This document shows positions 2,244-63,485 of a stretch of 64,000 bases of DNA, piece by piece. The notes below the pieces were generated by a model. It was not told the DNA's origin and ran no database searches. It worked only from the letters and a program-made list of their open reading frames with translations. The translations under genes and the position numbers were made by a program. Each line of letters starts with the position of its first letter. The first letter of the stretch is position 1. The stretch is taken from NCBI GenBank assembly GCA_963855995.1, contig OY979730.1, positions 3,596,501-3,660,500 of the forward strand. The letters run 5' to 3'. Source of the DNA: Muricea muricata (Eukaryota; Cnidaria; Anthozoa; Malacalcyonacea; Plexauridae).

Positions 2244-5200
2244 TCAATCTGTAGCGAGAAAATTGGAGTATTCTGCAAATGAGTCGATATATTTGGCGAG
2301 AACTTCGTAACAGAACTGTAACTGAAGCTGAAAAATAAAATGTAATTAATACTTAAAAATAGCCCGGTGTTTGTATTTGGCAGTAATGAGTAATGAGCAA
2401 TAATCAATCAAGCTCATTTTACACAACAAAAAAGCTCAAGTTTATCCCAAAGTTTAATATATGACGATATAAAAAGCTCAGTTACTTAGCTTAAATTGCC
2501 TAGAGCTGATCTGTGTCAATCATTAAGACTTACAAAATTAGATATGCAGCACAACAGCAGGGAAATTTGTCACCGCTGTGCAAAAATATTGTTGGCGGCT
2601 GAACACAAAATGTAATTAGCATATCATTTGCGAAATACAGATTGGTTTCAGAGGTGCTCGGAACTTAGTTTCTTTGACGAGCCAGTTATAATTTTGTTCA
2701 CAATTTTTTTATTGATTTCAGTAAAGAACTGATATAGCTGTCAGTTAATCATATTTTGAAGTGATGACATCGTCTGTTGAAGCAAATTTCCAAACTTTGA
2801 CATGTGAGTGGGTTGCCAAGAATTAAGCGCGATGTTGAATTTGCGTTTGACTTAATACTGAAAAATTTAGCTTTTGCTACAAAAAGATATTTGTTTCTTG
2901 TTACTTCCAATATGTTTATGTTCCTTTCCAAACCAATTTTTTTGTTTATAAATTCCGCTCATGGCCAATAGTTTGCTGTGAAACTCGCTACCGGAAAAGT
3001 ACTTTAAATTACGGTTGTTGTTGAAATGGTCGTGAAAGTGATAAACCATCCACAATCACGTGGGCCATCAGTGCAATGATGTCTTTGATATTGTATAAAT
3101 GTTTTCGTGTAAATGGTAAAGATATTTTTCAATTGACTAATGCGTTTAGTCGATCGATTTCAGTGACATTTTTGTATTGTTGTTCGAGTACGAGCGTTGA
3201 CTAGTTTGAGTCGAATTTTAAAAAATCAGCCTTTTGCTCCAACATGATTTTAGCTGGAACTTGGCCTTCATGTTTATATCTACTCACCTGATTTGTTAGC
3301 ATGCTCTTAAAAATTACTAAAAGGTCGTTTAGTCCACTGAAAATGCTTGTGATCCATGTTTGTTATATTATTTTTAAATATCACGCGTAAATCACGCAAT
3401 TTCCACGCGTTCACGCAGGCTTATCTGGTGCATACTCAGACAAATTTCCCAGCAGCTATGCAGCATTGAATAGGGATGAGATATTGATGTATATGGGTGG
3501 TGTTGTATTTATTGGAAAGTTTTACCATGCAGAGTTAAGAGAGTTTTTTAAATTTCTACTCAACTAAGCACTACACCATGCTCATACATGGAACTTAGGA
3601 AAACTGTAGGAAAAAAAAGAGCATTGGGTAGTTATAGTAGATTCTCGCCATGTTCAAGCATGTTTTTTAGCTTGCCTGGCGTACCTGCGCTCAGATTAAC
3701 CCTCCCCACATAAATCACATCCATACGAGTACTATATAACACCAGTACCCAACACCAAAGGCTAGATAGGATAAAAATTATTATAGCTACCTCGTTTTCA
3801 ATGAATTGCGGTCGTTTTGCTCGGATCAGTTTAATACAATGAAATACGTCAACTCTTTGTTCCATTTTCAATCGTTCCATGCAAATACTGATGGCGATAA
3901 ATGTTCCTGTTCTTCCTGCGCCATTGCTAAAGGAAAGCAACTTTATCATTTGGCAACATCAGAGGTAAACCCTAATCACGACATGTGAGTCATTTTAAAG
4001 TAATGAGTTGTGAAATGCGTTTCATATAGCTAACCCGTTTCTAGAGATATGGTTAACGGTTGCATAAAATACCAAAGATACAAAGACATTTAACGACAAG
4101 TATATGTTTAGTAAGAAAGAGTATGTGTAATGTGCATAATCATTTAAACCAAATCGCAACACAACCTGATTCCTAAGCGCTTTAATTAGGCTCACCAAAT
4201 CACAGTCGCCCGGTCAGAAGCGCAAGGGGTTAACTTTAAGTAGGCGTTATAAACAGAGAACAACGGATGCATAAATGATATATCTACAGTAAAATTCCAC
4301 AGTGATCCCGAGCGCAAATGTATCACATATAGCCAGAGTTGTCGGTATATAAATGACTTTTTTAATTCTTGAGGATGTTTTCCAACAAGAATCCATGGAT
4401 TCTTCGAGATTTCTTCACAAGTTTCATCTAATTATTTATGCAAGTTAAATAACTCAGTTGCCACATCAAAGAAAAACAAGTTAGATGACCAAGCAGCCTA
4501 TATTACCTGCAGTGAACAACCATTGGACCTTGAACGTTCTGTCGTTGAGCTGTCTGTATTGTTTGCAAAAGTTGAAGGATATTATCTGGCTTTTCAGGAA
4601 CGCCTCGCTCAGGCCACTTTGTACATTGGAAATGACGAAGAATGTGTGCACTTTTGAAATCCTGGAACAACCCAAGTTTAAAATCGTCAATTCAGGGAAT
4701 AACCAAGGAAAATAATCTAATAACGGGATGATAATGATGAAATAAAGTTATTAAAATTCTTATGGCAGTTTTTTAACGAAAAATTCTTGCGTGTTAATCT
4801 TCGATCGGACACTCAGACCGTCTGAGAGCGCCACCTCTCCCTCCTACAAATATATCAAACAGGCCAGTGTTATCAATCTCCAGGAACTGCCAGTCACTCT
4901 AGAAATGCCCTCTGTAGCTCTTACGCAATTCATCTAGCTTATATGAAGTTCAGAAAACGTACTGAGGTAGAGGAGACTGAAAACTTTCGGAAGACAGGAT
5001 CCTTATCCGCGACATGCTCGTCGAGTCTGACATGCAGGTTACCATATTTCGCCGTGCCTCCTTTTTCACTTGGGAAGTATTCCGGATATTTCTGAAAAAG
5101 AAACATTGATTCAAGGACATGTTTATCCAAATACGGAAAAGAGCAAAAAGTCAATGTTTTGCCGATGTGAAAAGGGTAGTAAGTTTCTAAGCGTCTATTG

Positions 5201-63485: not shown

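Follow-up and report, generated by a model that had tools for sequence, protein, structure and literature searches.

The paired receptors of vertebrates include SIRP, KIR and Siglec, with the ITAM being supplied by a DAP12-type adaptor. For CD300A and CD300C, the relevant passages of one report describe ectodomains kept alike by gene conversion and tails that diverge (PMC12447643). For Hydractinia Alr and Botryllus fuhc, sections of a further source describe clusters of receptor genes whose products bear motifs of the ITIM and ITAM type (PMC12065747), and the oyster CgIgIT2 appears in an excerpt as a single-pass receptor bearing an ITAM (PMC11999971). Invertebrate homologues of Syk/Zap70 co-occur with CARD-CC/Bcl10, and the Bcl10 lineages include cnidarians (PMC5978004). 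An ancient conservation of ITAM-containing upstream receptors was inferred from the occurrence of these homologues, according to the pertinent parts of the same study (PMC5978004). A receptor phosphatase paired with an ITAM-tail twin was not found in the portions of open-licence PMC papers returned for the terms searched.

Here, we describe a locus of the octocoral Muricea muricata contained in a window of 64,000 nucleotides (the whole stretch of DNA analyzed; C15:3596501-3660500) and compare it with the 453 Mb assembly of 74 contigs. An initial annotation had proposed tandem paired receptors with one ectodomain and opposite cytoplasmic outputs. The neighboring genes, their alike ectodomains, their different signaling ends and a second locus agree with the idea of paired receptors, but "one ectodomain" goes too far, as gene A is shorter than gene B. 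We see an even chance that the locus encodes a system of paired receptors based on a receptor-type tyrosine phosphatase of octocorals.

Gene structure in the window

Two genes on the minus strand span most of the window, gene A (63485 to 45876; 12 exons; 916 aa) and gene B (43176 to 2244; 31 exons; 1705 aa). In both gene models, every intron is GT-AG, the phases are consistent and internal stops number zero. The 5' flank and exon 1 are common to A and B at 81% identity over 870 bp. The parts of gene A are as follows.

63410..63485, minus strand: exon 1 with start codon and signal-peptide-like stretch (by eye)
62200..62484, minus strand: SUEL-like lectin exon, below the Pfam cut-off
54724..55031, minus strand: first F5/8C (fucolectin-like), exon 1 (Pfam)
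53405..53522, minus strand: first F5/8C, exon 2
51087..51410, minus strand: SRCR1 (Pfam)
50465..50776, minus strand: SRCR2 (Pfam)
49997..50301, minus strand: second F5/8C, exon 1 (Pfam)
48471..48612, minus strand: second F5/8C, exon 2
47509..47799, minus strand: FN3 (Pfam)
47346..47386, minus strand: FN3b exon-start stub, intronic in gene A (41-bp match to gene C)
47153..47243, minus strand: transmembrane exon
46819..47048, minus strand: juxtamembrane exon (YETM, YSNV)
45876..46144, minus strand: tail exon with YMSL-x9-YQSL twice

Gene B consists of the following parts.

43101..43176, minus strand: exon 1 with start codon and signal-peptide-like stretch (by eye)
37148..37432, minus strand: SUEL-like lectin exon, below the Pfam cut-off
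23515..24743, minus strand: first F5/8C, two exons (24743-24436, 23632-23515; Pfam)
22778..23092, minus strand: SRCR1 (Pfam)
22198..22509, minus strand: SRCR2 (Pfam)
16925..18079, minus strand: second F5/8C, two exons (18079-17775, 17066-16925; Pfam)
16522..16812, minus strand: FN3a (Pfam)
13589..15837, minus strand: exons missing in gene A (FN3b 15837-15520, FN3c 15421-15340, 14851-14485, 13682-13589)
12837..12930, minus strand: transmembrane exon
12385..12635, minus strand: juxtamembrane exon
7363..11431, minus strand: phosphatase D1, nine exons (Pfam and structure matches)
2244..7204, minus strand: phosphatase D2, seven exons, stop at 2244 (Pfam and structure matches)

The initial annotation, in which B was gene 1 and A was gene 2, described two intact head-to-tail paralogues with a common set of exons. 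Both genes are indeed open and phase-consistent, but the count was too low, as a gene C and a broken fragment also adjoin. The exons named as common are present in both genes, but A lacks the second FN3 and the membrane-proximal exons. Pfam recovers SRCR twice in each gene, fn3 once in A and twice in B, and F5/8C in both, one of these being the fucolectin-like domain previously labeled FTP. The SUEL-like exons score 25.5 bits in A and 27.5 bits in B against the PF02140 cut-off of 31.4 bits; a homologue in T2, the tail gene of the second locus, scores 37.9 bits. Four ectodomain exons of B are absent from A, namely FN3b, FN3c, the membrane-proximal region with an RRRR site and one more, and the ectodomain of A is about 285 residues shorter, the missing part being membrane-proximal. 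The acceptor at 46144 is preferred for the last exon of A among possible further in-frame acceptors, since a pyrimidine-rich stretch precedes it and its ttttag is the same in gene C and in a related copy at 7.70 Mb.

The inner parts of the two genes are as the initial annotation had read them, with two Pfam Y_phosphatase stretches (507.8 bits) at the end of B and two YxxL-x9-YxxL units in the tail exon of A. Within the window, tblastn (E<1) found no phosphatase remnant in gene A and no tail-like exon in gene B. A scan of the window with Rfam at gathering thresholds gave 0 matches.

Mobile elements occupy several introns. The first intron of gene B contains transposase-like open reading frames on the plus strand (38360-40871), with DUF4371 at 39190-39729, which we take to be hAT-like. 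Further introns of gene B hold retroelement reading frames (19235-20821 and 26466-34438), including a reverse transcriptase at 26797-27834 and a GIY-YIG domain at 20273-20818 of a presumably Penelope-like element. A reading frame nearly identical to the GIY-YIG frame is located on the other strand at 19235-20026. A piece of a Pao-type retrotransposon peptidase lies in an intron of gene A (48815-49117).

Identity of the phosphatase gene

From its sequence, gene B is a predicted receptor-type tyrosine phosphatase with an ectodomain, one transmembrane segment (by eye) and two PTP domains. In sequence, D1 keeps the catalytic motifs KNRY, WPD, HC-x5-R and the Q-loop, and D2 has WPE. The membrane-proximal exon at 14851-14485 carries the furin-like RRRR site, and the exon at 13682-13589 is membrane-proximal as well. 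The inner part of B aligns across D1 and D2 with the structures of PTPRA, PTPRS, PTPRE and LAR, the best PDB match being PTPRA at 444 bits.

The octocoral Dendronephthya gigantea has a protein of 1700 aa, annotated as PTPRF-like (P0121), whose architecture is that of B. Identity to B is 53% over residues 470-1120 and 63% in the ectodomain common to both, and reaches 75% and 74% in D1 and D2, respectively. Such a close octocoral relative fits a cnidarian origin and would place the genome among or near the octocorals. Across the shared ectodomain, genes A, B and C are 63%, 63% and 60% identical to this protein, respectively. A second relative is a 590-aa protein (P0008) encoded on a 2932-base ENA contig, with 64% identity over 53% of gene A. 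Its reading frame covers the last part of the first F5/8C, a pair of SRCR domains, the second F5/8C and a pair of FN3 domains, and is probably transcript-derived given that it has no introns.

Gene C and the mosaic structure of gene A

Gene C is located 2.4 to 15 kb past the high end of the window (C15:3675453-3662904) and encodes 1214 aa with 0 internal stops. Its ectodomain has every exon found in that of B, the four absent from A among them, and the transmembrane, juxtamembrane and tail exons that come next are of the A type, with one of the four YxxL tyrosines of the tail being lost. Directly before gene C lies a fragment with a broken tail (3.676 Mb), and the order along transcription is fragment, C, A and B. 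No further complete copy was found in C15:3566501-3730500.

Gene A is a mosaic of a B-like ectodomain and a C-like transmembrane-juxtamembrane region. From the first F5/8C to FN3a, 219 informative sites are shared by A and B only, 49 by A and C only, and 56 by B and C only. The respective counts for the transmembrane and juxtamembrane exons are 17, 73 and 13 (Fisher test of 219:49 vs 17:73, p=5.8e-27, which is nominal since sites are linked). The signal peptide and SUEL depart from the A-B pattern, with 21 sites shared by A and B only and 26 by A and C only. Synonymous divergence (dS) between A and B is 0.13 in the ectodomain, 0.69 in the transmembrane exon and 0.84 in the juxtamembrane exon, with zero synonymous differences in one 103-codon exon, and the trend is reversed between A and C (0.32, 0.09 and 0.16). 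Ectodomain identity is 88% over 692 aa between A and B, and 77% over 690 aa between B and C. Genes A and C are 91.1% alike in the intron between the juxtamembrane and tail exons, and 94.4% in the tail exon.

If B and C recombined by unequal crossing-over, a single event would leave the order C, A and B, with the 5' end needing a further event. One such crossover within a tandem array could account for much of the mosaic with no need for selection. A gene A with a B-like 5' end and a C-like 3' end between its two parents is also expected if the array evolves by ordinary birth-and-death and unequal crossing-over, with tail genes being by-products that serve adhesion in some way and do not function in pairs. 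We consider this explanation unlikely. Against it stands the purifying selection on ectodomains, which is also clear for the tail in two of its six comparisons. Estimates by the Nei-Gojobori method with 200 bootstraps show purifying selection on the coding sequence of all three ectodomains, with dN/dS of 0.49 (0.37-0.69) for A-B, 0.41 (0.32-0.52) for A-C and 0.45 (0.35-0.56) for B-C. The ratio differs from exon to exon and reaches about 1 for SUEL between B and C. When each is compared with the 7.70 Mb copy, the tail of A has a dN/dS of 0.22 (0.08-0.47) and that of C 0.37 (0.17-0.76); the intervals of the other four of six comparisons include 1.

The loss of the exons from FN3b to the membrane-proximal region would also be expected if gene A was a decaying pseudogene. 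We consider such decay highly improbable, as all 12 exons are open and phase-consistent, A and B are equally near the Dendronephthya protein (63% each), and the A-B dN/dS of 0.49 has an upper bound of 0.69. A pseudogene reading of A is hence disfavored by open frame, phase and dN/dS.

A second locus and the distribution along C15

A phosphatase gene (P2) followed by a tail gene (T2) is found on the plus strand at C15:3.902-3.945 Mb, 0.24 Mb away. The D1 of P2 contains the motifs WPDHGV and SAGVGRTG, and the transmembrane exon of T2 precedes its tail. The two genes were compared piece by piece. Their ectodomain consists of an N-terminal domain, SUEL, SRCR, F5/8C, two FN3 and a membrane-proximal part, and is distant from that of the window (36-38% in one FN3 exon, weaker in the remaining exons). 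The N-terminal piece of P2 has no Pfam match.

C15:3932678-3933095 (T2) and C15:3905613-3906026 (P2), plus strand: N-terminal domain

Identity between P2 and T2 is 81% in the N-terminal domain, 93% in SUEL, 87% in SRCR, 83% in F5/8C, and 84% and 73% in the FN3 domains, falling to 64% and 49% in the two membrane-proximal pieces. Similarly, dS is 0.14-0.22 in the first six pieces (N-terminal to FN3-2), then 0.85 and 0.63. The divergence patterns of the window and the second locus thus indicate that, at these two loci, distal ectodomain parts are most alike within a locus and inner modules within a type. The recurrence of the phosphatase/tail contrast at the second locus is unexpected under birth-and-death without pairing.

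Other parts of C15 are less regular. No clear matching is seen in a third candidate pair (5.53/5.57 Mb), with 75.6% nucleotide identity in the one exon compared, where nine sites group by locus, four by type and six by neither. A matched third pair is unsupported by these values and was rejected. A search with D1 returned 67 rows, of which 37 fall on C15, and 18 distinct places on C15 match the WPD-loop exon (a hand count from search rows, in which some places may be broken). A tail gene lies within about 45 kb of only 3/18 of these phosphatase places (3.6, 3.9 and 5.5 Mb). At 7.70 and 7.75 Mb, the membrane-proximal exon is present in the tail genes, but no D1 match lies nearby, and the 7.70 Mb copy lacks SRCR and second F5/8C matches between the first F5/8C and FN3a. 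Pairing of phosphatase and tail is not universal on C15. Birth-and-death accommodates the 18 D1 places, the many F5/8C exons, the broken copies at 3.676 and 8.352 Mb, the shortened ectodomains of A and the 7.70 Mb copy, and the unmatched third candidate pair.

The segment at C15:2.05-5.57 Mb shows a large expansion of receptor-phosphatase D1 exons and T2-type F5/8C exons. Four equal-scoring T2-type F5/8C matches are spaced about 31 kb apart at 4.251-4.345 Mb.

Tail motifs and candidate readers

The tails form a small family on C15. A genome search with the tail of A gave nine matches, all on C15, and 11 of the 12 rows obtained with the second-locus tail are on C15 as well, with the twelfth being a weak match on C8 (E 1.3). 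Six related tails are open (A, C, and those at 7.70, 7.75, 3.945 and 5.53 Mb), and copies at 3.676 and 8.352 Mb are broken. Among the six, 23/24 YxxL tyrosines are kept and the spacing is nine residues in 11/11 intact pairs, and this conservation of tyrosines and spacing again argues against tail genes as mere by-products of birth-and-death. No tail-region homologue was found at E<=1 among 1408 candidates in the protein set. Likewise, no tail-type relative was recognized among the best 120 of 1145 matches and among 28/28 matches, where only candidates sharing most words were scored. A receptor end at 4.664 Mb on C15 (L050), with a TM-like stretch followed by YEEL-x10-YQAL and YTEL-x9-YQSL, is distant from the tail in the window.

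A canonical ITAM reads YxxL/I-x(6-8)-YxxL/I, with wider spacing in some, and a spacing of nine exceeds the strict range of 6-8. The tyrosines inside each unit are 13 residues apart. The polarity of the A and C tails could be activating, given the ITAM-like spacing, or inhibitory/docking, as 3/4 sites in A also fit the ITIM pattern. The tail might act as a docking module of the SHP, Grb2 or PI3K type, in which case A, C and B would be unopposed and B may simply reset the phosphorylation of its sisters. We regard this option as possible, if rather doubtful. In the tail of A, three of four YxxL sites fit the ITIM-type pattern, with S, S and L at position -2; two of three do so in C, and the juxtamembrane exon of B contains one such site, SLYETV. 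YETM is found in the juxtamembrane exons of A and C, and YxN in those of all three genes, motifs that we assume to suggest PI3K and Grb2 docking, respectively. Two SH2 matches close to a phosphatase match on C5 suggest a candidate SHP-type gene, which would add a reader for docking. The distance of 13 residues, which is the same in all 11 intact pairs, is ITAM-like though, and SHP-binding site pairs are spaced more widely.

The genome encodes an SH2-SH2-kinase in a single 588-aa frame (L060), for which the top-scoring solved structures are those of SYK (464.8 bits) and ZAP-70 (459.5 bits). This Syk homologue is a candidate reader of the tails. An ITAM with both tyrosines phosphorylated is bound by the paired SH2 domains of Syk/ZAP-70. 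Six strong SH2 matches in a row at C15:9.587-9.708 Mb may represent an expanded SH2 family.

A proposed model for paired receptors

Phosphatase receptor B and the tail receptors C and A would display the same or nearly the same ectodomain of SUEL, F5/8C, SRCR, F5/8C and FN3. Src-type kinases would phosphorylate both YxxL-x9-YxxL units of the tail receptors, and the phosphorylated tails would then be bound by a reader with tandem SH2 domains, for which the Syk homologue is the likeliest candidate. Engagement of B by the same ligand would bring the D1 phosphatase beside the phosphorylated tails, which would be switched off. As the tails would be reversed by the D1 of B itself, the partner would itself contain the phosphatase and have no need to recruit one through an ITIM. 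Unequal crossing-over or gene conversion would keep the ligand-binding parts matched, with the inner parts staying different. Exclusion by size has been proposed for CD45, and with an ectodomain about 285 residues shorter, tight contacts between A and its ligand could also exclude B by size. For the paired reading, we infer expression, a shared ligand, phosphorylation, Syk binding, polarity and a role in immunity or allorecognition.

Pairing gained evidence from the complete matched ectodomain in C, the mosaic gene A, the second locus, purifying selection on the ectodomains and the Syk homologue. The shorter A, the off-pattern SUEL and signal peptide, the unmatched third pair and the tail pairing of only 3/18 phosphatase places count against it. 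So do the spacing of nine beyond the ITAM range of 6-8, the tyrosine loss in C and the 4/6 tail intervals that include 1. Opposite outputs, as originally proposed, are not established, since the tail may be inhibitory or docking and receptor phosphatases can activate Src kinases. The full proposal is of octocoral non-immunoglobulin pairs that join an inhibitory receptor phosphatase to an activating sister with an ITAM-like, Syk-read tail, with ectodomains repeatedly copied along one chromosome as a candidate allorecognition or immune complex. We put it forward tentatively, at somewhat short of an even chance.

Comparison with known receptor systems

Should the proposal hold, paired receptors would have arisen outside vertebrates, with another fold and with the phosphatase inside the receptor, and the tail receptors A and C would be candidates for a place upstream of cnidarian Syk. 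Genes A, B and C offer concrete candidates for how octocorals might tell self from non-self.

The locus resembles vertebrate paired receptors in having adjoining paralogues with similar ectodomains and different signaling ends. The ectodomain is of SUEL, F5/8C, SRCR and FN3 rather than immunoglobulin type, however, one partner contains a phosphatase instead of an ITIM, and the ITAM-like tail lies within the receptor rather than in a DAP12-type adaptor. Like PTPRA, PTPRS, PTPRE and LAR/PTPRF, gene B has FN3, an RRRR site, one transmembrane segment, and D1 and D2. Unlike these, it carries outer lectin and SRCR domains and has sister genes that keep the ectodomain without the phosphatase. Alr differs by belonging to the immunoglobulin superfamily, as does the Botryllus family that bears the motifs, and a built-in phosphatase partner sharing the ectodomain is undescribed in the corresponding sections of their source. 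Oyster CgIgIT2 likewise has an immunoglobulin ectodomain, and the excerpt on it makes no mention of a phosphatase twin. Within the covered parts of this literature, vertebrate paired receptors and invertebrate ITIM/ITAM motifs are known, and a built-in phosphatase partner with a non-immunoglobulin ectodomain is not described.
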